Of a stretch of 64,000 nucleotides of DNA, positions 8,312 to 63,667 are shown one piece after another (within the stretch, counting starts at the first letter, position 1; the number at the start of each line of letters is the position of its first letter). The translations under genes were made by a program, and so were the position numbers. The stretch covers positions 893,309-957,308 of the forward strand of contig NZ_JANDBC010000001.1 of assembly GCF_024320785.1 (NCBI RefSeq), given 5' to 3'. Origin of the DNA: Gracilimonas sediminicola (GTDB lineage Bacteria; Bacteroidota; Rhodothermia; Balneolales; Balneolaceae). The notes beneath the pieces are model-generated. The model was not told the DNA's origin. It did not search any database and was given only the letters and a program-made list of their open reading frames with translations.

Positions 8312-8319
8312 ATTAGTAG

Positions 8320-8354
8320 TGAGTTTTGAGAAACGAGTATTGAGATACTCATTT
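8320..8354. repeat. Left heptad repeat (TGAGNNN) bracketing S23 gene 1
   Basis: Four to five 7-base units of form TGAGNNN or CGAGNNN (TGAGTTT, TGAGAAA, CGAGTAT, TGAGATA) run on the plus strand. The stop codon of the S23 gene (8349-8351, minus strand) is inside the array. It is the inverted partner of the array at 8716-8750. Confidence 0.7.
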
Positions 8355-8705
8355 ATTATTAAGTTTATTTGCAAATACGTAAATCATTTTCTGAATTTCA
8401 TCGATCTCTGCTGATAGCTTAGAATGATCTTCATCTTTTAGATAACCAAGATTATTAGCAATCAGTAACTGTGTTTCTAACTCATAGATGGATCCATATG
8501 CGATGTGTAAAAAATATTTAAACTCTTTTTTACCTTCTCTACCAGCACCCTCTGCAATGTTGGAAGGTACTGACACAGCACACCTCCTCATCTGAGATGT
8601 AATACCATACTTCTCTTCCTTTGGGAATGACTTTGTAGCTGAGTAAACCTCTGTAGCCAGATCTACCGACCTTTTCCAAATCTCTAAGTTCTTATATTTG
8701 TTCAT
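8349..8705 (-). CDS. S23/IVP-type four-helix-bundle protein, copy 1
   Basis: 118 residues from ATG 8705 ([21 protein letters not shown]). The pattern [43 protein letters not shown] and [19 protein letters not shown] is diagnostic of the four-helix-bundle proteins first seen as 23S rRNA intervening-sequence ORFs; the fold is shared with Avd of diversity-generating retroelements. Function is unknown. It interrupts an otherwise tightly packed beta-oxidation operon in the same direction and is enclosed by inverted TGAGNNN heptad repeats, which suggests it arrived as a unit. No reverse transcriptase or template repeat is present. Confidence 0.92.
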
Positions 8706-8715
8706 TCCAAAGTTG

Positions 8716-8750
8716 TTACTCAGCACTCATTTCTCAAGACTCACCACTCA
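8716..8750. repeat. Right heptad repeat (TGAGNNN, minus strand) bracketing S23 gene 1
   Basis: Five exact TGAGNNN heptads on the minus strand (TGAGTGG, TGAGTCT, TGAGAAA and two more). They are in inverted orientation to the array at 8320-8354 and share the TGAGAAA unit, ending 11 bases before the S23 start codon. Confidence 0.75.
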
Positions 8751-8755
8751 AAAAT

Positions 8756-15446: not shown

Positions 15447-15530
15447 CGGTGATTCGTAAATTCGTTATTCGTAAATTCGTTATTCGTTATTCGTTATTCG
15501 TTATTCGGAAATCGTTAATCGGTTAATCGC
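15447..15530. repeat. Heptad repeat (TTCGTTA type), right copy
   Basis: About twelve 7-base units, with the core TTCGTTA repeated at least four times in exact phase between 15470 and 15508 and more degenerate units on both sides (GTAAATT, TCGGTTA, TCGTTAA). It matches the shorter array at 13467-13515 in the same direction. Confidence 0.8.
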
Positions 15531-15648
15531 TGTTCGCATTGATTTGCGATGGACGATTTTGCTGTTATAATCCTTGCGCTCGTAACGAAGATTCGTTATT
15601 CGCTGTTCTCCCACTTTCAAAAGAAAGTCACATTAGCTATTATCGGGC

Positions 15649-26225: not shown

Positions 26226-28145
26226 TTATTTTTGGTTTTCAAGTGTTTTCAGAAGACGAATGGTAATCTTCATAAAATTACCCTCCGATATTATTCCTAT
26301 AAGCCGGCTGTTTTTCACTACCGGGAGACAACCAATCTTTTGTTCCCTCAGTATTCTCATAGCCTCCATTATAGATGCCTCCGGGTGAATCGTAATAGGA
26401 TTTTGAAGCATGATATCGCTTACGGTTTTAGTGCCTGTGTCTTCACCTGCATCCTCAGCTTTTGAGTATTCACGCAGCAATTGCCTCATGGTGATCAACC
26501 CTATTAAGTGCTTCTGATCATCTTCTACGGGTAAATACCTGATCTTTCGCCAGTCTAACAGGTTGGCAACAAATTCGAGTATATCATCTTTATGAACGGT
26601 AAACAGGTCGGTAGTCATAAACTCTTCAACCATCAGGGATGACGGTTTCCAGTTTTCCAAATCTTCCAATTTCGCTAACCCCCATTTATGAACAGGTTCT
26701 CCTTTGTTTTGATTCTTCATCATCGCTGAAGTGATGGCTGTAAGTGCCTGATCTCTGTTACTCTCTTTAACTAAATTTCCATAAGATTTAACAACCCAAT
26801 AGGATCCGGTTTGTGCGCTTTTCACCCTCTCCTCTATCACACCAAGGTAGGTGTCAATGTCAGAAGAATTGATGTCAGCTTTTTTCAACCCATTTCGAGC
26901 AATCGGCAACAGTTCGTCTTTAATCAAATCAACCGCCGATACTTTCCGATCACCCGTCCACATAAATTTGGTATCCAGACCCATTTTGGATGCTGCAAAA
27001 AAGTTCATCCGGGCGTTATCAAAATCCAATTCTTTGGTAATATCCTTGTACTCATCTTCAAATCCATTCAACAGCCCCAGCCAAAAAGCTGCATTTGACA
27101 CTTCATCTACAACTGTGGGTCCCGATGGAAATATTCGATTTTCAATTCTCAAATGGGGCTTTCCGTTACTAATACCATAACAAGGCCTGTTCCACCTATA
27201 CACCGAAGAATTATGCACTTTAAGCGCCATAAGCTCTGGTGCCTTTCCTTCTTCCATAAGTTTTTCCACTTCTTCCTCAACTTCTGCACTCAGCATTACG
27301 CGGTATCGGGAAATATCTTCCTTATAAATATCAAGGATACTGTCTTCCAACCATTGGTTCCCAAAGGTTACACGTGGACTTGAGTCCCGCAGATGCTCTC
27401 CCACCTGCCGGGTATCGATGGATTGATGAAAAAGGGCTACCCGGGTTTCTGCCCAAAGGCGCTTCCCGAATAGGACGGGGGAATTTACCGCACAGGCTAA
27501 AACGGGAGCGGTAACCGCTTGTGCAATATTGTATCGGTTTACAAATTCATCAGGCTTAACCTGTAAATGTACCTGAAACCCGGTATTGCAAGCTTCCAAC
27601 AAGGGAGAATCAAATTTCATCAGCAACTCATCCATCCCCTGAATGCGAAGTTCAAACTCTTTACCTCTCAGTCTATTAATCGCTTCACACAGAGCCTCAT
27701 AACGCTGGAGCGGGGTTAAATTTTTGATATCCACATCCATCTTTCGGATGGTTGGCAAAATACCCGTAAGTAAAATATCGCCCCCCATCTCTCTAACCAC
27801 TTTCCTAACACGCTCCACATCTTCATGAAGATCATGCTCCATCTGTGAAAGGCTGTTGCCGGTAAATTCCAACGGCTCCATATTGATTTCCAGATTGAAG
27901 CGGGCAAACTCAGTGGTGTAATTTCCGTCTCCAAGTTTTTCCAGAACTTCCATCGACTTTGAAAACACCTTGCCATTCGGATCAACCATACAAAGCTCCT
28001 GCTCGGCCCCAATTCTTATGGTATCGGTTTCAAACCAGTCATTTTCAAGCATGGTTTTCAAGGCCCGCATATCGCGGAACACGTGCTTCATGAAGTTCTG
28101 CACCTGTTCGTTATCATCAGCAAGCTTTACGCGCTCTTCTCCCAT
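26226..28145 (-). CDS. Glutamate-cysteine-ligase-like GCS2 enzyme fused to a CBS pair
   Basis: 639 residues. Residues about 20-450 are a GCS2-type carboxylate-amine ligase domain (IGAEQELCMVDPNGKVFSK, FNLEINMEPLEF with the metal Glu residues, NTGFQVHLQVKPDEF, RIENRIFPSGPTVVDE). The C-terminal part has two CBS modules at about residues 505-565 and 575-632 (FMTTDLFTVHKDDIL, SDIMLQNPITIHPEASIMEA), which bind adenosyl ligands and often regulate the attached enzyme. GCS2 enzymes join glutamate to an amine, as in gamma-glutamylcysteine synthesis. No gshB is nearby, so glutathione itself is not assured. A regulatory energy-sensing role for the CBS part is inference. Confidence 0.9.
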   Translation of the reverse strand: MGEERVKLADDNEQVQNFMKHVFRDMRALKTMLENDWFETDTIRIGAEQELCMVDPNGKVFSKSMEVLEKLGDGNYTTEFARFNLEINMEPLEFTGNSLSQMEHDLHEDVERVRKVVREMGGDILLTGILPTIRKMDVDIKNLTPLQRYEALCEAINRLRGKEFELRIQGMDELLMKFDSPLLEACNTGFQVHLQVKPDEFVNRYNIAQAVTAPVLACAVNSPVLFGKRLWAETRVALFHQSIDTRQVGEHLRDSSPRVTFGNQWLEDSILDIYKEDISRYRVMLSAEVEEEVEKLMEEGKAPELMALKVHNSSVYRWNRPCYGISNGKPHLRIENRIFPSGPTVVDEVSNAAFWLGLLNGFEDEYKDITKELDFDNARMNFFAASKMGLDTKFMWTGDRKVSAVDLIKDELLPIARNGLKKADINSSDIDTYLGVIEERVKSAQTGSYWVVKSYGNLVKESNRDQALTAITSAMMKNQNKGEPVHKWGLAKLEDLENWKPSSLMVEEFMTTDLFTVHKDDILEFVANLLDWRKIRYLPVEDDQKHLIGLITMRQLLREYSKAEDAGEDTGTKTVSDIMLQNPITIHPEASIMEAMRILREQKIGCLPVVKNSRLIGIISEGNFMKITIRLLKTLENQK

Positions 28146-28232
28146 AGTCTGTTCCGTTAGATGGGTTGAATTTCATTCACCCTTAAATACCGACTTTGCG
28201 TACCCTTTTGCAAGTTTTTTGAAGGGCCTTTT

Positions 28233-30668
28233 TTACTGAATGGCGTCCACGTTTACATTTACCCTCACCGATGAGAATCTACCTTTGGTTTCTGCTTCAT
28301 ATACTCCCATAATTTTCTCCACAACTGCCTCGATATAACCCGCTCCTTTTTCGGGATCAATCTTCAGCGTTACCTCCCAAATGTACTTCTTATTCATCCA
28401 GGGAATGGCACCCGGCGAAGGCCCCAAAACAGCTAATTCAGGAACCACTCTCCCAATTGATGAGGTTAGCTGGTGGGCCGCCTGACTTACCTCTTGTTCC
28501 TTTGTAGATTTAAGCTCAAACTGTATCAGGCGTGAATAAGGCGGGTAATAAAGCGGTTTCCTGAATTCCATCTCCTGTCGTGCAAATCCCCGGTGATCGT
28601 GTTTTTTAGCAAACTGGATAGCTGGATTTTCCGGCTGCCGGCTTTGAAGAAATACGGTGCCGGCCTTCTCTCCTCGCCCCGATCTTCCTGAAACCTGGCT
28701 CAGCAGTTGGTACATTCTTTCTGTTGCCTGAAATGAGGGAAAGGCCAATTCCGTGTCGGTATCAATCACCCCTACCACCGTTACATTTGGGAAATCGAGT
28801 CCTTTGGCCACTAATTGAGTTCCAATTAATATATCTGCTTCACCTTCCCCGAATGTATTCAGAATCTGTTCATGAGCCCCTTTTCGGGAGGTGGAATCAC
28901 GGTCAAACCGGATTACGCTTGCCTCAGGGAACAAATCTCCGAGTTGCTCTTCGATATTTTGCGTTCCCGATCCTTGCACTTTCAGGTTTGGAGAACCGCA
29001 ATGCTCGCAGTTGGTATCGGCACGGCGGGAATACCCTGAGTAATGGCACATTAGCAGGTTTTTACGCTTGTGATACGTCAGGCTAACCGAACATTCCGGG
29101 CTTTGGGGGATATGCCCGCAATCTTCACATTGCAGATAACTGGCATAGCCGCGCCGGTTGTACAACAAGATAATTTGCTCTCCTTTTTCTAAAGCTTCTT
29201 CCATCTCCATAAAAAGAGGAACCGCCAGTTCGCCTCGCATAGCTCCTTTATACTGTTTTAGATCCAGCACCTCCACTTCGGGTAGCTTTGCTTCGGCATG
29301 GCGTTTTTTTAGTTCCAACATTTCGCACTTCCCTTTGGCCGCCATATTCAATGCCTGCATGCTTGGCGTAGCCGACCCCATAATGACAACAGCGTCGTTT
29401 TCCCGGGCTCTCACAATCGCCGTTTCCCGGGCATGATACCTGGGAGCGGGATCCATTTGCTTGTACGAGCTGTCGTGTTCTTCATCCAGAATAATAAGCC
29501 CCAGATTTTGTACCGGAGCAAACACTGCTGATCGTGGCCCAATGGCGATGTTCTTTTTCCCTGAATTCAGATCTTTCCAGGCCTGCAGCCGTTCACGGTT
29601 TGTCATTCGGCTGTGTAGAACAGCAATCTGATCACCAAAAATGCGGTAGAACCGGGATACCGTTTGCGGCGTAAGTGCAATCTCAGGAACTAACACTATG
29701 CCGCCTTTACCATTCTCCACCACTTGTTTGAGCGCATGGATATATACTTCGGTCTTTCCACTCCCTGTAATTCCAAACAGTAAATAATTGGCAAACTCTT
29801 CTTTCGTCAGTGATTCACTTATTTTCTCAAAGGCTTTTTCCTGATCCTCATTTAGGGTTTTTATGGATTCCGGTTCATGAGATAGGTGATCGATTTCGGT
29901 TTTCTTCTCCACATCCTGATAGGTAATCCAGCCTTCATCACGCAGTTTTTTTAGGGTGTATGAGGTTAGAACCGACTCCTCTGAAATATCAGATTGCCGA
30001 ATGGGAATTCTTTCAGCGATATATGAAAGTGCTTCTATCCACTTCAATTCACTGTTAGCATCGTCACTTTCTAAAAACGCTTGTACCGATTCTTCATTTC
30101 TTCCTTCAGCCCATATCCATTGCCGCTCTGTAGCTACCGTCACCTTCAGGTCTGGCTCTTCCCAAATCTCGATTACTTTCTTTTTAAGCAGCTTTGAGAA
30201 TACTTTATTTAAACCCGTTCCCTTATACCTTTTCTTGGCTTCATTCAGCGTTGTTTCTGATTGTTGAAGGTCTTCAATAATTTCCTTTTGGTCTTCGCTC
30301 AATCCTGCATCATCAACCGATTCAGATACTCTCAGGTATTTGCGGGAAACGAAGTTCAAACCCGCCGGCAGAGCAGCCTGAATTGTTTCTCCCCAGCTGC
30401 TATAATAGAACCTTGAAATCCATTGGGTAAGCTTCAAAAGCTCCTGCGACAGAAGAGGATCCTCATCCAGTATTTTTCGCAGGGGCTTTGTTTTGAAAGA
30501 AGGAGTTTGATTGTGAACACCGACAATCACACCAATGGCATAGTAGTTTCTGAATGGTATCCACACGCGCTGCCCGGGCTGTACAGAAGCCATAAGCTCT
30601 TTAGGCACGTGATAAGTAAACTGCTTTCGGACCGCTGCCGGTAAAGCTACATCAACAAAAATGGACAA
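28233..30668 (-). CDS. priA: Primosomal protein N' (replication restart helicase PriA)
   Basis: 811 residues. N-terminal 3'-DNA-binding domain (FVDVALPAAVRKQFTYHVP), then a helicase core with Walker A GITGSGKTEVYIHAL and DEEH (ILDEEHDSSYKQ), a zinc-binding insertion at 514-557, and the C-terminal helicase lobe (GTQLVAKGLDFPNVTVVGV). PriA reloads the replisome at collapsed forks. The first zinc site is intact (Cys514, Cys517, Cys554, Cys557), but in the second the expected outer cysteines are Ser523 and Ser544, leaving only Cys526 and Cys541. This was checked at codon level (AGC and TCA), so it is not an alignment slip. Confidence 0.96.
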   Translation of the reverse strand: MSIFVDVALPAAVRKQFTYHVPKELMASVQPGQRVWIPFRNYYAIGVIVGVHNQTPSFKTKPLRKILDEDPLLSQELLKLTQWISRFYYSSWGETIQAALPAGLNFVSRKYLRVSESVDDAGLSEDQKEIIEDLQQSETTLNEAKKRYKGTGLNKVFSKLLKKKVIEIWEEPDLKVTVATERQWIWAEGRNEESVQAFLESDDANSELKWIEALSYIAERIPIRQSDISEESVLTSYTLKKLRDEGWITYQDVEKKTEIDHLSHEPESIKTLNEDQEKAFEKISESLTKEEFANYLLFGITGSGKTEVYIHALKQVVENGKGGIVLVPEIALTPQTVSRFYRIFGDQIAVLHSRMTNRERLQAWKDLNSGKKNIAIGPRSAVFAPVQNLGLIILDEEHDSSYKQMDPAPRYHARETAIVRARENDAVVIMGSATPSMQALNMAAKGKCEMLELKKRHAEAKLPEVEVLDLKQYKGAMRGELAVPLFMEMEEALEKGEQIILLYNRRGYASYLQCEDCGHIPQSPECSVSLTYHKRKNLLMCHYSGYSRRADTNCEHCGSPNLKVQGSGTQNIEEQLGDLFPEASVIRFDRDSTSRKGAHEQILNTFGEGEADILIGTQLVAKGLDFPNVTVVGVIDTDTELAFPSFQATERMYQLLSQVSGRSGRGEKAGTVFLQSRQPENPAIQFAKKHDHRGFARQEMEFRKPLYYPPYSRLIQFELKSTKEQEVSQAAHQLTSSIGRVVPELAVLGPSPGAIPWMNKKYIWEVTLKIDPEKGAGYIEAVVEKIMGVYEAETKGRFSSVRVNVNVDAIQ

Positions 30669-30742
30669 AATATCGGTGTGATCTTGATTTCATGAATAAA
30701 GGAAGGAAAGCTTATCCAATTTCAACGCCTGAATCAACCAGT

Positions 30743-30832
30743 TTATAGAACCACTAGTAAATAAATCAGAATAATAAGTACCGGTAAGCTAAATACCAGT
30801 CCGCCTCTCCAATATGCCGTTCTGTTTCTCAT
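30743..30832 (-). CDS. 29-residue membrane peptide, tentative
   Basis: A short frame from ATG 30832 to a TAA at 30743, with an AGGAG Shine-Dalgarno about 8 bases upstream (AGGAGACGGTTATG). The product is basic at the N-terminus (MRNRTAYWRGG) and then one hydrophobic helix (LVFSLPVLIILIYLLVVL). It lies between priA and the second S23 gene, in the same direction. The size is small and there is no known family, so it could be chance; the ribosome site is the main support. Confidence 0.4.
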   Translation of the reverse strand: MRNRTAYWRGGLVFSLPVLIILIYLLVVL

Positions 30833-30922
30833 AACCGTCTCCTGTCTAACTATTTACCGCTGATGACAGATTTAGTTTCATCAACTGCAATCTTAATTAA
30901 ATCATTCTCTCCAAACACCACA

Positions 30923-30958
30923 TGAACATGTGAACATTGAACAAGGAACACCCAACGT
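30923..30958. repeat. Left heptad repeat (GAACANN) bracketing S23 gene 2
   Basis: Seven-base units TGAACAT, TGAACAA, GGAACAC and CCAACGT, reading plus strand and ending one base before the S23 stop codon. It is the inverted partner of the array at 31356-31390. Confidence 0.75.
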
Positions 30959-31330
30959 TTAAGTTTCTTTTCTAAGGTTGTGCGTTGCTGTTTGGATGCT
31001 CTTCACAAATATTGCAATGAGTTCATTGTTTTCTTTCAATATTTCATCCAAGATTAGGTCAGCAAGTATTCTTCTCTTTTTGAGAATAGAAATATTTACC
31101 TGCGTCTCTCTAAGTTCTTTGGCGCCAATTTTCAGTTTATGAATAAAATCTTTTCTTGATTCCGCACTTTGAGCTTCACCATGATGAAATGCCGGTGATG
31201 TTCCACTTTTTACTAATTGCTTAGCAAAATGGATTCCCATAACTGTTTTGGGCAGCTGATCAACAATTTCCAGTACCATAACTGAAAAATTTATCAGCCT
31301 TTCCTGTAAATCATATTTCACATTTCTCAT
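30959..31330 (-). CDS. S23/IVP-type four-helix-bundle protein, copy 2
   Basis: 123 residues (MRNVKYDLQERLINFSVMVLEIVDQLP, PKTVMGIHFAKQLVKSGTSPAFHHGEAQ, FIHKLKIGAKELRETQVNISIL). It is a diverged member of the same family as the gene at 8349-8705, with the SGTSPAFHHGEA motif in place of [12 protein letters not shown]. Both copies are enclosed by inverted heptad repeats, each copy with its own core word. Function is unknown. It sits between priA and comM on the minus strand with no obvious operon partner. Confidence 0.88.
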   Translation of the reverse strand: MRNVKYDLQERLINFSVMVLEIVDQLPKTVMGIHFAKQLVKSGTSPAFHHGEAQSAESRKDFIHKLKIGAKELRETQVNISILKKRRILADLILDEILKENNELIAIFVKSIQTATHNLRKET

Positions 31331-31355
31331 AAGTCTTCGTTTAAGTTATAGTTTA

Positions 31356-31390
31356 AAGTTCAACATTCGATGTTCCTTGTTCAGTGTTCT
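31356..31390. repeat. Right heptad repeat (GAACANN, minus strand) bracketing S23 gene 2
   Basis: On the minus strand five 7-base units run in exact phase: AGAACAC, TGAACAA, GGAACAT, then CGAATGT and TGAACTT. It is in inverted orientation to 30923-30958, and the comM stop codon (31389-31391) overlaps its last unit. Confidence 0.75.
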
Positions 31391-32930
31391 ACCCCAGCCA
31401 GCCTTCCCGGTCCAGGCTTCTGTATTGGATGGCTTCAGCCACGTGGTTTGATTTGATTTCTTCGGAGTGATCCAGATCGGCTACTGTCCTTGATACTTTC
31501 AGGATACGATCGTAGGCACGGGCCGAAAGTCCCAGGGAAGTAATCGCTTTTTTGAGGATAGATGAGCCGGCATCATCCAGCTTGCAGACTTTCCGGACGG
31601 TACGGGTACTCATTTGGGCATTGCAATAAACACCTTTCATCCCCATAAACCGTTTGGACTGAATTTTTCGGGCTTCCACTACCCGCTCCCGAATATCTTT
31701 AGAAGACTCCCCTTTTGCCTTCCCCGATAGTTCTTCGTAACTCACTTTATGTACTTCGATATGCAAATCAATCCGATCCAGCAACGGCCCGCTGATTTTG
31801 CTCAGATATCTTTGCATCTGCATCGAGCTGGTGCCATTCATTTCTTGTGGATCATACCAGTCACCTGATGGGGAAGGATTCATCGAAGCCACCAGCATCA
31901 CCCGGCTCGGATAGGTCACGCTCATTCGGGCCCTTGAAATGGATACGCTGCCATCTTCCAGCGGCTGGCGCATTACTTCCAGGGCGCTTCGCTTAAACTC
32001 CGGTAGTTCATCTAAAAAAAGCACTCCGTTATGCGCCATCGAAATCTCGCCGGGCATGGGAATGCTCCCCCCTCCCACCAAAGCCACATCCGATACCGTG
32101 TGATGAGGAGACCGAAACTGACGTTTAGTAATCAGTGCTTTTCCCGATTCCAGAATCCCCGATACCGAATGGATCTTGGTTGTTTCAAGAGCTTCCTCCA
32201 AAGTCAGCGGCGGCAGAATCGTTGGTATTCGGCGGGCCATCATGGTTTTTCCTGAACCCGGAGGACCTACCATAATTACATTATGTCCACCAGCAGCAGC
32301 AATCTCCAGGGCTCTTTTTACATTTTCCTGTCCACGGACATCACTGAAATCCAGCGGATTGTGTTTCCCATTCTGATGAAAATATTCCTGCACATTACTT
32401 CTCAATGGATCGATATTTCCGCGGTTTTCGAGCCAGTCTTTCACCTGGTTCAGATGCTCAAAAGGGAACACTTCAATCCCCTCCACAACTGCTGCTTCTC
32501 CGCCGTTTTCTTTGGGAACCACCAGGTATTTGAATCCTTTTTTGGCAGCCTCAACGGCAACCGGAAGTACTCCTTTGACCGGACGTATTTTTCCATCCAG
32601 TGCCAACTCTCCCAGCATTACGGTATCGTCCAGTTTGTCGGTATGGATTTGCCCTGACATATTCAAAATTCCGATGGCGAGGGGCAGATCAAATCCATTT
32701 CCTTCTTTAGGTAAGTCGGCCGGAGCCAGATTTGCGGTGATTCTTCCCAATGGATAATAAGAGCCCGTATTCCGGATGGCTGCTTCTACCCGGTCTCTTG
32801 ATTCTTTTACGGCGCGGTCCGGCAATCCCACCAAAAAGAACTTGACCATTCCATTGGTGTGATGTGTTTCTACGTCAATAATTTTTGCATCCACCCCCAC
32901 TGTGGATGCACAGTAAACTCTTGAAAGCAT
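31389..32930 (-). CDS. comM: YifB/ComM-family Mg-chelatase-like AAA ATPase
   Basis: 513 residues from ATG 32930 ([21 protein letters not shown]), the conserved family start; a longer frame from 33008 is rejected. Domains are an N-terminal Lon-like/ChlI fold domain, a Walker [18 protein letters not shown] at about residue 215, Walker [14 protein letters not shown], and the C-terminal four-helix lid ([19 protein letters not shown]). ComM proteins are hexameric helicases that extend branch migration during natural transformation. Whether this organism is competent cannot be told here. Upstream it is divergent from the DUF4342 gene. Confidence 0.93.
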
Positions 32931-33022
32931 GTTTTGTACCTGAATCTTTTTTATTGTGTTTACGTAGTTAGAGCGGTGAGAATCCAATTCCTTACAAAAA
33001 AATTTCATAAATCATACATATC

Positions 33023-33469
33023 ATGAAAAAAGAAGAAGCTAAAGAGAAGGCAAAAACCATTTATCAGGAAATACAGGGCGGCGTAAATGAGGTGATAAAG
33101 CAGATCCGGAATTTGATTAAAGAAGGAAGCGCCCGTAAGCTGATTATTAAGGACAAGGAAGGCGAAATTAAATTTCAGACTCAGCTGGCTTTTGGGGTAA
33201 GCGGGGCTGCACTTATCGGAGCGATGGCACCCGTCATTTCAGCCATCGGGATGTTTGCCATGTTCATCAACGATTACCAGATTATTGTGGAACGGGAAGT
33301 TACCGATGATGATGAGTATTCGGTGGATGCTGAATTTATAGACATCAAAGATGAGGACGAGTCGGAAGAAGAAAAGCCGAAAGCCAAGTCAAAGTCTAAA
33401 AAAGAAGATTCGGACTCCGAAGAAGAAGAGGAAAAGGAAGAAAAAACGGTTGGGAAGAAAAAGAAGTGA
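33023..33469 (+). CDS. DUF4342 domain protein with acidic-lysine tail
   Basis: 148 residues. The N-terminal 90 residues match DUF4342: an amphipathic helix (KEEAKEKAKTIYQEIQGGVNEVIKQIRNL), a basic RKLIIKDKEGEI strand, then a membrane-like hydrophobic stretch (LAFGVSGAALIGAMAPVISAIGMFAM). The remaining residues are highly charged (runs of Glu, Lys and Asp) and probably disordered. Function is unknown. The stop codon is part of an inverted repeat shared with the end of trxB. Confidence 0.85.
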   Translation: MKKEEAKEKAKTIYQEIQGGVNEVIKQIRNLIKEGSARKLIIKDKEGEIKFQTQLAFGVSGAALIGAMAPVISAIGMFAMFINDYQIIVEREVTDDDEYSVDAEFIDIKDEDESEEEKPKAKSKSKKEDSDSEEEEEKEEKTVGKKKK

Positions 33470-33538
33470 TAAGTAATTAAGTGATGAAGTGATTGAATTG
33501 CAGAACATAGCTCACTTCATCACTCGTTAATTTATCAC
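33466..33538. repeat. Imperfect inverted repeat between convergent genes, GTGAT words
   Basis: The left arm 33466-33492 and the right arm 33512-33538 match in 22 of 27 positions as reverse complements, with a perfect outer 13-base block (AGTGATGAAGTGA). The left arm consists of words AAGTGAT or AAGTAAT at a 7-8-base period. It could serve as a bidirectional terminator for the DUF4342 and trxB genes, although T tracts are weak. Confidence 0.6.
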
Positions 33539-33546
33539 CATATCAC

Positions 33547-34524
33547 TTACTTCCAATGAGATTCGGCGATGGCTTCTTCGCTTTCAAGCTCACCTAAATA
33601 GCGTTCGGCATCAAGAGCGGCTTTACATCCGGTTCCTGCTGCAGTTACTGCCTGTCGATAAACGGCATCCATGGCATCTCCGCAAGCAAACAATCCGGGT
33701 AGGTCGGTTTCGGTTGATTGACCTTTTGTTTTGATGTAGCCGACATCATCCATTTCCACCACACCTTTAAAAAGATCCGTGTTTGGCTTGTGACCGATAG
33801 CTACAAAAACGCCGGTTACGTCCTCTAATTCTGTTATTTCGCCAGTATTACTATTCTTTATTTTCACCCCATCCACAACTTGATCACCAAGAACTTCAAT
33901 CAGCTCGCTGTCCCACATAAATTCAATCTTGTCGTTGTTGAATGCGCGGGTTTGCATTGCCTTGGAAGCACGCAGCTCATCCCGACGATGAACGACAGTA
34001 ACTTTGCTGGCAAATTTAGTCAGGAAGGTGGCTTCCTCCATGGCTGTATCACCGCCACCAACTACAACTACATGCTGGTCGCGGAAGAATGCACCGTCGC
34101 AAGTTGCACATGCTGATACGCCTTTCCCTCTCAGCTTCTGCTCGCTTTCAAGGTGCAGCCATTTAGCTGAAGCGCCGGTGGATGCAATAATTGCATTCGC
34201 GTACACCTCGGTTTTTTCATCAACAGTGATTTTATAGGGGCGTTTGCTGAAGTCGATATCAGATACAAAACCGTACCGGCAGTCAGCCCCAAAGCGGGTA
34301 GCCTGCTCTCGGAAGTCCTGCATCATTTTCGGGCCCATTACTCCTTCCGGGTAGCCGGGAAAATTCTCTACATCGGTGGTGGTCATAAGCTGACCACCGG
34401 GCTCAGGACCTTCAAATACCAATGGGCTTAAATCGGCTCTGGCTGCATATAAAGCAGCAGTTAAACCTGCGGGCCCGCTTCCTACAATTACAACGTCAAA
34501 TGTTTTTCCGGCAATATCTTCCAT
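33547..34524 (-). CDS. trxB: Thioredoxin-disulfide reductase
   Basis: 325 residues. FAD-binding GSGPAGLTAALYAARA at the N-terminus, the redox pair Cys139 and Cys142 in ACATCDGAFF, the NADPH motif VVVGGGDTAMEEATFL, and the C-terminal FAD contact LFACGDAMDAVYRQAVTAAGTG. The enzyme transfers electrons from NADPH to thioredoxin in the cytoplasm. It is expressed on its own, convergent with the DUF4342 gene. Length and all motifs are standard. Confidence 0.97.
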   Translation of the reverse strand: MEDIAGKTFDVVIVGSGPAGLTAALYAARADLSPLVFEGPEPGGQLMTTTDVENFPGYPEGVMGPKMMQDFREQATRFGADCRYGFVSDIDFSKRPYKITVDEKTEVYANAIIASTGASAKWLHLESEQKLRGKGVSACATCDGAFFRDQHVVVVGGGDTAMEEATFLTKFASKVTVVHRRDELRASKAMQTRAFNNDKIEFMWDSELIEVLGDQVVDGVKIKNSNTGEITELEDVTGVFVAIGHKPNTDLFKGVVEMDDVGYIKTKGQSTETDLPGLFACGDAMDAVYRQAVTAAGTGCKAALDAERYLGELESEEAIAESHWK

Positions 34525-34815
34525 ATCTCAAATCTTTAGTTAATTCGACTCCAATTATAAGGTTTTGAGAACAAAATAATCTGTCTAATTCTCTATCGAA
34601 TTCATAGATCAAGCTTATGCTAAAACCTCAAAGTGTCACCTTCTATTTTCGTTTTAGAGATGCATTTCCAACCCGAGTTCTTACTTACCTGAAGACACCA
34701 TGCTCAAATAGGATAAGTCACTTTTAAATTCCCATAAAAAAGCGCTCCCAATAGCATTTGTGATATTCACCGATTTCATTATGTTAATCAAAATGTTTTA
34801 ACGGAGGATAAAAAA

Positions 34816-35934
34816 GTGATTGTTGGAGTTTTAAAGGAAACAGCTGAACATGAACGTCGGGTTGCGCTTACACCCGAAGTCACTGACCAACTAATTAAAC
34901 AGGGGCTTAATGTCTGGGTTGAAAAAGATGCCGGACTTGCATCCAACTTTTTAGACCAACATTACAAAGATTCAGGAGCTAAGGTAGTGTCCGGCAGGAA
35001 TGAAATTCTCACCCAAACTGACATCCTCCTTACTATTCAAACTCCTTCCAACGAAGAACTTAAGAAGTTAAAGAAGGGAACCATTCTCATTTGCTTCCTC
35101 TGGGCTCTTCAGCACCCTGAGTTGGTAGAAGAGCTCAAAGAACTGGAAATTTCTTCGCTTGGGATGGATGCCATCCCCCGCATATCACGGGCACAGAATA
35201 TGGATGCCTTGTCTTCCATGAGTTCCATTGCCGGTTATAAATCTGCTCTGATCGCGGCCAATGAGCTCGACAAATATCTGCCCATGATGATGACCGCCGC
35301 CGGAACTATCCCGCCTTCCAAAGCACTGGTTTTAGGTGCCGGAGTTGCCGGACTTCAGGCCATTGCAACCTGCAAACGACTGGGATCTGTGGTTGAAGCT
35401 TTTGACATCCGCCCGGAAGTAAAAGAGCAGGTAGAAAGTCTGGGTGCCAAGTTCGTTGAAGTTGAACTTGGCGAGGAAGACACACAGACCGAAGGAGGCT
35501 ATGCCAAAGAGCTGGATAAGAGTAAGCAAGACCTCCAGCGTGAAGCCATACATAAGCACGCGAAGAAATCAGACATTATCATCACTACTGCTTTGATACC
35601 GGGCAGGCCAGCACCACTTCTTATCACCGAGCAGATGGTGAAAGACATGGCCCCGGGTTCTGTGATCGTTGATATAGCTGCTGAAAACGGCGGGAATTGT
35701 GAACTGACCGAGGCCGGGAAAACGGTCATCAAACATGATGTTAAAATTGTGGGACCTGTAAATCTGCCAAGCCGACTTTCTCATCATGCCAGCAAGCTTT
35801 ATTCAAAGAATATGTACGCTTTACTAAATCTTCTTATTAAAGAAGGAAAAGCAGATTTTGATTTTGAAGACGAAATTCTGCTTAAAACCACCATCACCCA
35901 TCAGGGCAAAACCATTAGTCCAATGTTGAAATAA
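34816..35934 (+). CDS. pntAA: NAD(P) transhydrogenase subunit alpha, soluble part (PntAA)
   Basis: 372 residues, starting at GTG 34816 with GGAGG 9 bases upstream. The AlaDH/PNT N-terminal domain is clear (VGVLKETAEHERRVALTPEVT, WVEKDAGLASNF), followed by an NAD-binding Rossmann domain (LVLGAGVAGLQAIATCKRLG). In this organism the alpha subunit is split: the soluble domain I here and the membrane part encoded by the next gene. The enzyme couples proton flow across the membrane to hydride transfer between NADH and NADP+. Confidence 0.96.
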   Translation: MIVGVLKETAEHERRVALTPEVTDQLIKQGLNVWVEKDAGLASNFLDQHYKDSGAKVVSGRNEILTQTDILLTIQTPSNEELKKLKKGTILICFLWALQHPELVEELKELEISSLGMDAIPRISRAQNMDALSSMSSIAGYKSALIAANELDKYLPMMMTAAGTIPPSKALVLGAGVAGLQAIATCKRLGSVVEAFDIRPEVKEQVESLGAKFVEVELGEEDTQTEGGYAKELDKSKQDLQREAIHKHAKKSDIIITTALIPGRPAPLLITEQMVKDMAPGSVIVDIAAENGGNCELTEAGKTVIKHDVKIVGPVNLPSRLSHHASKLYSKNMYALLNLLIKEGKADFDFEDEILLKTTITHQGKTISPMLK

Positions 35935-35966
35935 ACATCGAACAAGGAACACCGAACTTCGAAGTT
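35932..35966. repeat. Heptad repeat (GAACANN) between pntAA and pntAB
   Basis: Five 7-base units (TAAACAT, CGAACAA, GGAACAC, CGAACTT, CGAAGTT) begin at the pntAA stop codon and fill most of the 48-base gap. The core is the same as around S23 gene 2 and at 62006-62040, and the last two units form a 14-base palindrome. Confidence 0.75.
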
Positions 35967-35982
35967 CAAAACTCATACTGCT

Positions 35983-36279
35983 ATGTCAGCTTTAATTTTT
36001 TCTTTATTCATTTTTGTTCTGGCCTGTTTTATTGGGTTTGAACTCATTTCAAAAGTACCTCCAACCCTGCACACCCCGCTTATGTCTGGGGCAAATGCCA
36101 TTTCGGGCATCACCATTGTAGGGGCGCTAATTGTTGCCGGCCACTCGGGGGTGGATTCTCAAATGAGTCAAATCATCGGTTTTGTTGCCATCGTATTTGC
36201 CACTATTAATGTGGTGGGCGGTTTTATGGTTACAGACCGCATGCTGGAGATGTTCAAGAAAAAGGAGGATGACAAATGA
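35983..36279 (+). CDS. pntAB: NAD(P) transhydrogenase subunit alpha, membrane part (PntAB)
   Basis: 98 residues with three membrane helices (MSALIFSLFIFVLACFIGFELI, TIVGALIVAGHSG, IIGFVAIVFATINVVGGFMV). It contains the VPPTLHTPLMSGANAISGI loop typical of the membrane domain II of transhydrogenases, including the conserved polar helix residues of the proton path. Its stop overlaps the pntB start by 4 bases (ATGA). Confidence 0.95.
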   Translation: MSALIFSLFIFVLACFIGFELISKVPPTLHTPLMSGANAISGITIVGALIVAGHSGVDSQMSQIIGFVAIVFATINVVGGFMVTDRMLEMFKKKEDDK

Positions 36280-37694
36280 GCCAGTTTTTACCTGAAAGCT
36301 TTTTGCCTTTTGTACCCGATGTTATCCAGATTATATACCTGATTGCGACCTTCTTTTTTATTCGCGGGTTGAAGTTGCTGAACTCTCCCGCCACAGCCCG
36401 AAAGGGAAATCAATATGCAGCTATTGGGATGTTAATTGGTATTGCCGTCACTCTTTTCGATCAGCAAATTATTTCTTTTGAATGGATTGTAGCCGGTGTA
36501 GTTATTGGCGGTTTGATCGGCGCAGTGCTTGCCAAAAAAGTAGCTATGACAGCCATGCCGGAACTTGTAGCTGTGTTTAATGGATTTGGTGGTGGTGCAT
36601 CAGCATTAGTCGCCTGGGGAGAATTTTCCCGCCTGACCGATCCCACCGTTATGTCACCGGATAGTTTGGTTACCACAGGCTTAGGCATCTTCATCGGAGC
36701 CTTAACCTTCACCGGCAGTTTTATCGCCTTTGGTAAACTGAAAGGATTTATTTCCGGAAACGCCATCACCTTTCCAGGACTGAACGTTATTAATATCGGG
36801 TCCATGATTGGTGTGGTGGTTCTGATCGGAGTCTTCACTTTCGATCCCACTAATCAAACCATCTTCTGGATTATTCTCGGGCTTTCACTATTGATTGGAA
36901 TCACCTCTGTCATCCCCATTGGCGGTGCAGACATGCCGGTTGTTATTTCCCTGCTTAACTCCTATTCAGGCATTGCCGCCTCTATGGCCGGCTTTGTGAT
37001 TGGCAATAACCTCCTCATTATTGCCGGAGCTCTTGTAGGAGCGGCCGGACTCATCCTCACCCAAATTATGTGCAAGGCCATGAACCGCTCGTTAACCAAC
37101 GTCATATTTGGAGCCTTTGGAGGTGAAACAAGCGGAACTGCAAGTGGCGAAGAAGGAGACAAAACCGTTCGCGAAACCTCTGCGGAAGATTTAGCTATTC
37201 AGGTTGCGTATGCTTCAAAGGTTGTCATTGTACCGGGATATGGATTGGCCGTTGCTCAGGCCCAGCATGTTATTAAAGAAGTGGCCGGAAAACTCGAAGA
37301 GCGCGGTGTGCAGGTTAAATACGGGATTCATCCTGTAGCAGGTCGCATGCCCGGACACATGAACGTACTTTTAGCCGAAGCGGACGTTCCCTACGACCAG
37401 CTGTTGGACATGGATCAAATCAACCCGGAATTTAAATCGACGGATGTGGTATTGGTGATTGGAGCCAATGATGTCGTAAATCCTGTCGCTAAAACCGAGC
37501 CCGGCAGCCCCATCTATGGCATGCCTATACTTAATGTGGATGAAGCCAAACGAACGGTGGTATTTAAGCGAAGTTTAAGCCCCGGTTATGCCGGCATCGA
37601 TAATCCGTTGTTTTATGACGAGAAGAACCAGATGTTTTTTGGGGATGCCAAGAAGAGTTTGCAAGCTCTGAATGAAGCGTTGAATGATGTTTAG
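36276..37694 (+). CDS. pntB: NAD(P) transhydrogenase subunit beta (PntB)
   Basis: 472 residues: eight or nine membrane helices to about residue 290 (GGGASALVAWGEF, GSFIAFGKLKGFISG, SYSGIAASMAGFVIGNN), then the NADP-binding domain III with VVIVPGYGLAVAQAQH, VKYGIHPVAGRMPGHMNVLLAEA and VVLVIGANDVVNPVA. It completes the proton-translocating transhydrogenase. The order pntAA-pntAB-pntB is a standard operon; only the heptad repeat between the first two is unusual. Confidence 0.96.
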   Translation: MSQFLPESFLPFVPDVIQIIYLIATFFFIRGLKLLNSPATARKGNQYAAIGMLIGIAVTLFDQQIISFEWIVAGVVIGGLIGAVLAKKVAMTAMPELVAVFNGFGGGASALVAWGEFSRLTDPTVMSPDSLVTTGLGIFIGALTFTGSFIAFGKLKGFISGNAITFPGLNVINIGSMIGVVVLIGVFTFDPTNQTIFWIILGLSLLIGITSVIPIGGADMPVVISLLNSYSGIAASMAGFVIGNNLLIIAGALVGAAGLILTQIMCKAMNRSLTNVIFGAFGGETSGTASGEEGDKTVRETSAEDLAIQVAYASKVVIVPGYGLAVAQAQHVIKEVAGKLEERGVQVKYGIHPVAGRMPGHMNVLLAEADVPYDQLLDMDQINPEFKSTDVVLVIGANDVVNPVAKTEPGSPIYGMPILNVDEAKRTVVFKRSLSPGYAGIDNPLFYDEKNQMFFGDAKKSLQALNEALNDV

Positions 37695-45272: not shown

Positions 45273-45294
45273 GATGGTTGGGTTGAGAATGAGG

Positions 45295-45400
45295 AATGAA
45301 AAATGAAAAATTCAAAATTAAAAATGGGGGCTCTTTCTGTCATATTGAGCTGATCGAGAAATAACAAATCCCCCCATTTTGAATTTTTCATTTTTCATTT
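45295..45400. repeat. Long hairpin of ATGAAAA heptads upstream of creD
   Basis: The left arm 45295-45330 consists of 7-base words (ATGAAAA twice, ATTCAAA, ATTAAAA, ATGGGGG). The right arm 45370-45400 is its reverse complement, with 24 paired bases plus a GGGGG/CCCCC block and a 5-base insertion in the left arm. Between them lies TGTCATATTGAGCTGATCGA. It fills the gap between creD and the preceding membrane-protein gene. Confidence 0.75.
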
Positions 45401-45435
45401 TGAATTTAAGAAGTAACACTGTTTCCGCTATTAGC

Positions 45436-63595: not shown

Positions 63596-63667
63596 TCTCA
63601 AGCTCCAAATCCCAATTTACAATTAATTGATCATTGGATTTGGTACTTGGTACTTGGTGCTTGGAAT
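63596..63667. repeat. Imperfect hairpin with TTGGTAC heptads between convergent genes
   Basis: Four 7-base units (TTGGTAC twice, TTGGTGC, TTGGAAT) lie at 63640-63667. A partly complementary segment (CAAGCTCCAAATCC) follows the asd stop at about 63598-63611, giving an imperfect hairpin that could end both flanking genes. Confidence 0.6.

Follow-up and report, generated by a model that had tools for sequence, protein, structure and literature searches.

Genes of the S23/IVP family probably form two-part elements, each consisting of an S23 gene and its own seven-base word. Sequence comparisons point to a pairing like that of REPIN/RAYT systems, in which a pentameric, putative binding protein is matched with a dispersed word. 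The word is repeated some five times in each of the two inverted arms that enclose the gene, and gene-free copies of it, mostly short inverted pairs, lie in further intergenic gaps. The element considered here lies between comM and priA in a 64,000-nucleotide stretch of the Gracilimonas sediminicola genome (hereafter the window).

The S23 element between comM and priA

The features of the locus are as follows.

28233 to 30668, minus strand: priA, the next downstream gene (named from its sequence)
30923 to 30958, plus strand: 3' arm, GAACANN in inverted orientation, immediately past the S23 stop codon
30959 to 31330, minus strand: S23/IVP (four-helix bundle) gene, 123 amino acids, with PF05635 and TIGR02436 above cut-offs
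31356 to 31391, minus strand: 5' arm, five heptads of the word GAACANN read in the direction of the gene; shares bases with the comM stop codon
31389 to 33008, minus strand: comM-like gene (named from its sequence), upstream of the element, its stop codon forming the edge of the 5' arm

All three genes lie on the minus strand and are co-directional. On the gene strand, from 31391 down to 31356, the 5' arm reads TAGAACACTGAACAAGGAACATCGAATGTTGAACTT, which divides into TAG, AACACT, GAACAAG, GAACATC, GAATGTT and GAACTT; the leading TAG is the comM stop codon (31389-31391), which therefore supplies the first bases of the arm. The left array (30923-30958) reads TGAACATG-TGAACATT-GAACAAG-GAACACC-CAACGT and contains one eight-nucleotide step. 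When one is inverted, the two arms match along 31 nt. The first-pass annotation had placed an S23 gene between inverted GAACANN heptads here, with the correct coordinates and core word; it did not mention that the gene is on the minus strand or that an arm touches the stop codon of comM.

In a profile search the protein scored 43.6 bits against PF05635 (cut-off 33.8) and 63.8 bits against TIGR02436 (cut-off 24), and apart from the latter PF05635 was the only profile matched. Its predicted fold (pLDDT 95.5) resembles 2RLD and 2GSC (TM 0.8 for each), both of which are five-chain entries; 2GSC is the S23 protein of Xanthomonas campestris, and the Xanthomonas protein is cited as a homopentamer in PMC4990558. 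Scores above curated cut-offs and the four-helix bundle of the solved members place the protein in the S23/IVP family. No recognisable catalytic domain is present in S23. The dN/dS ratio is about 0.04 against the orthologue of one congener (G005) and 0.04-0.07 in orthologue pairs with measurable, clearly diverged dS, nearly identical pairs giving noisy values. S23 is under strong purifying selection.

Other elements in the window and the genome

Further elements and arrays of the same kind occur in the window.

8312 to 8344, plus strand: 3' arm of the first S23 gene, TGAGNNN inverted, ending at the fadA start codon
8349 to 8705, minus strand: first S23 gene, 118 amino acids, between fadJ and fadA
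8719 to 8755, minus strand: 5' arm of the first S23 gene, five TGAGNNN units on the gene strand
35934 to 35975, plus strand: S23-less array of GAACANN units that begins at the stop codon of pntAA; a short inverted partner accompanies it
45287 to 45407, no single strand: S23-less inverted array pair with an AATTTAA-like word (L008 type)

The presence of another, similarly bracketed S23 copy, also part of the initial description, was borne out by the gene at 8349-8705, with its five upstream TGAGNNN units and inverted downstream partners. At the pntAA site (35934-35975) the word differs in other congeners. Two additional arrays were seen: a perfect ATTCGTT array at 15452-15610, whose word matches no resident S23 and which has a partial inverted copy at 15590-15610, and a heptad hairpin at 63596-63664 (CCAAATC.../TTGGTAC...), whose word is like that of the S23 gene next to recA (L009). 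Across the window, six arrays exceed the threshold at lag 7, and none or one at lags 4-6 and 8-13; the four arrays at lag 14 are the harmonic of lag 7.

The genome carries 12 PF05635 genes. Read by eye, nearly all of them lie between inverted period-7 arms, with a different word each (TGAGNNN, GAACANN, GTTAGGT, GACNNNN, AATTTAA, AATATCC, GTTGCGG and others). Their neighbours, named from their sequences, are ordinary housekeeping genes: fadJ/fadA, comM/priA, frr/smc, kynU/recA, recN, radC/carbonic anhydrase and macA/macB.

Heptad arrays at S23 genes across phyla

S23/IVP genes were found in 232 of 296 sampled genomes of the phylum. A wider survey pooled loci of relatives, 80 genome loci spanning many phyla, loci from a draw across the phylum, and plasmid loci. 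Deduplication left 220 S23 genes from about ten phyla, whose 110-bp flanks were scanned for arrays, defined as lag-7 segments above the 5% shuffle level. Such arrays occupy 77% of upstream and 69% of downstream flanks, and 86% of the genes have one on at least one side; by this lag-7 measure an array is missing in about 14%. At other gene boundaries of the same loci the corresponding values are 18% upstream and 27% downstream, and in shuffles 5%. The initial view that the bracketing was unlikely to arise by chance is thus upheld, and the test proposed with it, in which a lack of heptad enrichment near S23 genes would have counted against the link, was run and gave enrichment.

Lags from 4 to 12 other than 7 are near background in these flanks, lag 8 being slightly raised. 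About 6% of S23 flanks hold a strong lag-8 array, which suggests that some S23 lineages use or mix in eight-base steps. The arms are inverted in 62% of cases, as against 13% direct, counting scores that exceed the 95th percentile for mismatched pairs. For arrays with a score of at least 12, the median length is 38 nt, and most comprise 4-6 units. The same pattern of arms is found in Cyanobacteria (GTAGGGA, GGGAACA, AAAGCTA), Verrucomicrobia, Cloacimonadota, Chloroflexota and others; L279, a locus from Gemmatimonadota, appears to have direct arms.

The word follows the protein lineage

Heptad profiles were compared in all phase shifts, and composition was removed by subtracting the similarity to a position-permuted profile. 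The resulting excess of word similarity is about 0 below 30% protein identity, +0.04 at 40-50%, +0.06 at 50-60% and +0.18 above 80%. The Mantel correlation between word and protein similarity is 0.42, and 0.35 below 60% identity, values reached by 0 of 2000 permutations. The trend is kept between different phyla (+0.053 at 50-60% identity). Paralogues within the G. sediminicola genome have no common word (mean excess +0.004). A composition artefact as the source of the link was rejected, composition having been controlled for with order-permuted words. Since unconstrained flanks would be expected to be saturated at such divergence, the link points to a constraint on the word. Alternatively, gene and flanks could descend together as one unit.

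Arrays without S23 and the genome-wide association

In 864 kb sampled from this genome, 28 lag-7 arrays were detected, 26 of them outside open reading frames, in a sample that is 87% open reading frame. A resident S23 word is resembled by 19 of the 26 intergenic arrays (p<=0.1 against order-permuted words), most often those of L011, L008 and L004, and 15 of the 22 S23-less arrays are inverted pairs or self-palindromic.

The association extends to whole genomes. Twenty-one genomes from the class of G. sediminicola, a small and phylogenetically non-independent sample, were compared: the density of heptad arrays per 100 kb is 0.15 in the 10 genomes lacking S23 and 4.7 in the 11 that carry it (Mann-Whitney p=0.003); at lags 6 and 8 the two groups do not differ. 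Three S23-bearing genomes (1, 7 and 11 copies) have zero arrays in 80 kb, and two genomes lacking S23 have one TAACTGA array each. TAACTGA proved uninformative as a marker of S23, 2 of 12 positive genomes lacking the gene, with a background of 22%. The idea, put forward with the first description, that the protein family and the repeats share a mechanism is strongly supported by the enrichment across phyla, the tracking of protein lineage by the word and the link to S23-bearing genomes.

These distributions also bear on polymerase slippage, by which heptads would arise as microsatellites in operon gaps where S23 merely tends to sit. An origin of heptamers by slippage has been put forward (Mrazek 2007, cited in PMC4679880 and PMC4692102), and it would agree with the variation of unit number and word among congeners. 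It leaves unexplained the scarcity of arrays in genomes lacking S23, the words that track protein lineage, the inverted arrangement and the gene-free arrays with resident words, and is a very improbable account of the arrays.

Placement in operons and polymorphism among congeners

In a non-redundant set of 187 elements, the upstream neighbour is co-directional with the S23 gene in 142 cases and not in 25, and the downstream neighbour in 132 against 32. The array starts at a median of 5 nt past the upstream stop codon, and within 10 nt of it in 47% of cases. The 3' arm starts at a median of 10 nt past the S23 stop codon, and its far end lies a median of 8 nt short of the next start. In 77% of cases the sense strand of the upstream arm is rich in purines. 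The elements occupy the gaps between stop codon and next start inside operons.

Comparison of orthologous sites across nine congeners reveals several states. Between fadJ and fadA, S23 is accompanied by TGAGNNN in two genomes, while three carry another S23 (53-57% identical) accompanied by AGATNNN, word and S23 type having been exchanged together; in five, nothing but a short AT-rich array is present. At the L002 site, whose neighbours are a PhoH-like gene (judged by eye) and a metallo-beta-lactamase-like gene, the 5' array persists without S23 in one genome, and others have a different, gene-free hairpin word. The L006 site holds an internally deleted S23 in one genome and a lone array in two, and is empty with a very short spacer in three. 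Next to the carbonic anhydrase gene, a hairpin with the same word but lacking S23 occurs in one genome. At the recN site of one genome RecN is 99% identical, yet S23 is only 69% identical. The comM/priA site retains S23 in the majority of congeners, as do four loci from other members of the Balneolaceae. A separate S23 gene directly after comM was seen in a distant family (Saprospiraceae, L114), with a different word (GATTTTA type). These differences among sites indicate that the elements come, go and are exchanged, but slowly. Gain and loss are read from presence/absence polymorphism among congeners, and the insertion event itself is putative; no target-site duplication, a mark of DNA transposons with terminal inverted repeats, was evident at the filled and empty sites read, few of which are clean empty sites.

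The same sites bring in a further explanation: S23 with its arms would be a non-autonomous passenger, a plain mobile element for which IS200-like Y1 transposases of the RAYT type supply mobility in trans. A Y1_Tnp gene replaces S23 at comM/priA in two congeners (L157 in G003, L154 in G004) and at recN in one (L185 in G009). Among 38 relatives, 23 have both genes, 6 S23 only, none Y1 only and 9 neither (Fisher 3e-5, kinship ignored). The six S23-bearing relatives without Y1 carry 1-8 copies of S23, and among the Y1 genes whose flanks were read several have palindromic repeats of their own. A passenger role of this kind is accordingly judged very unlikely. In G003, heptad arms still bracket the Y1_Tnp gene at comM/priA.

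Other vehicles were also considered. S23 occurs in 35 of 72,556 plasmid records, mostly cyanobacterial, in none of the phage records and at 11 loci in 2.9 million viral contigs, and spread by plasmids or phages was rejected on this rarity. On three cyanobacterial plasmids (L269, L275, L278) S23 lies inside CRISPR operons, as cas6-S23-cas4 twice and cas10-S23-cmr3 once. The reverse transcriptase profile RVT_1 is absent from the G. sediminicola genome and from 7 of 9 congeners, which rules out the need for a resident reverse transcriptase. Since S23 has no recognisable catalytic domain either, copying of the arrays would presumably depend on host replication or recombination or on a transposase acting in trans.

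Hairpin or linear word

The first-pass annotation had suggested that the hairpin might be what the protein recognises. Conservation of an RNA stem would predict that heptads departing from the word find their match in register and that G.U mismatches outnumber A.C. In-register pairing is 15.2, against 14.3 for shuffles of heptad order, a small excess, and the arms contain 160 G.U and 156 A.C mismatches, which is to say equal numbers. The weak register excess and the parity of G.U and A.C weaken the idea of a conserved RNA stem: the arms barely covary, the suggestion is not supported for an RNA hairpin, and selection for such a hairpin in the transcript is disfavoured. A known RNA family at comM/priA was rejected, no Rfam match being found in 28000-37000.

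In its fuller form, this explanation would have the arms pair in the transcript, RNase III cut the stem as in the intervening sequences (IVS) of 23S rRNA, and S23 recognise the stem or be released by it. The inverted arms, the sense orientation in operons and the excision by RNase III of rRNA IVS that carry an S23 ORF (PMC4990558) are in its favour; the register and mismatch counts go against it, and it appears unlikely. Recognition of a linear word, iterated and inverted, accords better with the data. A DNA cruciform may still be the recognised form. The link between protein and word is independent of any RNA stem.

On the preferred reading, that of a gene paired with its own word, S23 would bind the word, and such binding may keep or spread the arrays. 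The number of units per arm, the unit of core plus spacer and the five-chain crystal entries suggest that a ring of five S23 subunits may take one heptad per subunit. TRAP binds spaced triplets in ring-like wrapping. A comparison with a TRAP-like ring rests on arrays of mostly 4-6 units and on solved relatives that are five-chain crystal entries.

Relation to known systems

No report tying S23 genes to heptad arrays in general was found in a search of 5.39 million papers, largely confined to sources other than subscription journals and preprints, of which six mention the family under the names searched. The nearest precedent is the Coxiella IVS, in which three to four GACAGAT heptamers lie just upstream of the S23p ORF and terminal inverted repeats form a 28-bp stem (PMC4990558). 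The IVS of 23S rRNA (helix 25/45; Coxiella, Leptospira) share with the present elements the S23p family, an ORF inside terminal inverted repeats and in transcript sense and, in Coxiella, heptamers upstream of that ORF (PMC4990558). The element at comM/priA likewise has its S23 ORF within complementary ends, the 31-nt inverted match; however, it lies between two protein-coding genes and not in a 23S rRNA gene, and the region has no Rfam match. The present elements also differ from these IVS in that the host transcript is a protein-coding operon, there are many copies per genome, each S23 lineage has its word, and gene-free arrays are dispersed.

With REPIN/RAYT systems the elements share a conserved single gene flanked by its own repeats, a word that matches the resident gene, repeats dispersed between genes mostly as inverted pairs, and near absence of the gene from plasmids and phages (PMC8049555). 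Cognate repeats both flank S23 and are dispersed as inverted pairs. S23 differs in being a four-helix bundle without an HUH/Y1 transposase domain, PF05635 being found in place of any Y1 transposase, and the repeat is a 7-mer array, whereas that of REPIN/RAYT is a 20-25 nt palindrome.

Heptanucleotide arrays described earlier (cyanobacterial STRRs, Xanthomonas GGGAATC, TAACTGA) are alike in having a seven-base unit and in lying in intergenic DNA, close to stop codons and between aligned ORFs, with convergent pairs being frequent (PMC4692102, PMC4679880); unlike here, no protein partner was named. The S23 fold also matches Avd of diversity-generating retroelements (4DWL, TM 0.7-0.75), a homology noted in PMC10053308. 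For L001 the Avd model scores under its cut-off, and for the S23 protein at 30959-31330 it gives no match; the reverse transcriptase partner of such retroelements is lacking, RVT_1 being absent from the genome.

Implications

S23/IVP had no known function when last reviewed (PMC4990558), and years of cataloguing heptanucleotide arrays have brought no protein partner to light (PMC4679880, PMC4692102). A link between the two makes two open questions one, testable with a 14-kDa protein and short oligonucleotides. It is conceivable, if on balance doubtful, that S23 is the trans-acting factor behind bacterial heptanucleotide arrays at large, including cyanobacterial STRRs, Xanthomonas GGGAATC and TAACTGA, each pentamer reading its own word, one per subunit, and thereby creating or maintaining the arrays. 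If so, this would explain why the unit length is seven and provide a natural protein family whose seven-base code could be read. Provided that each lineage does read its own word, the natural protein-word pairs, of which 167 were collected here, would make it possible to see how a small ring of helices recognises a repeated nucleic-acid word. Should the reading of S23 genes and heptads as two-part elements be true, they would constitute a widespread class of operon-embedded repeat element with neither a transposase nor a reverse transcriptase of its own.
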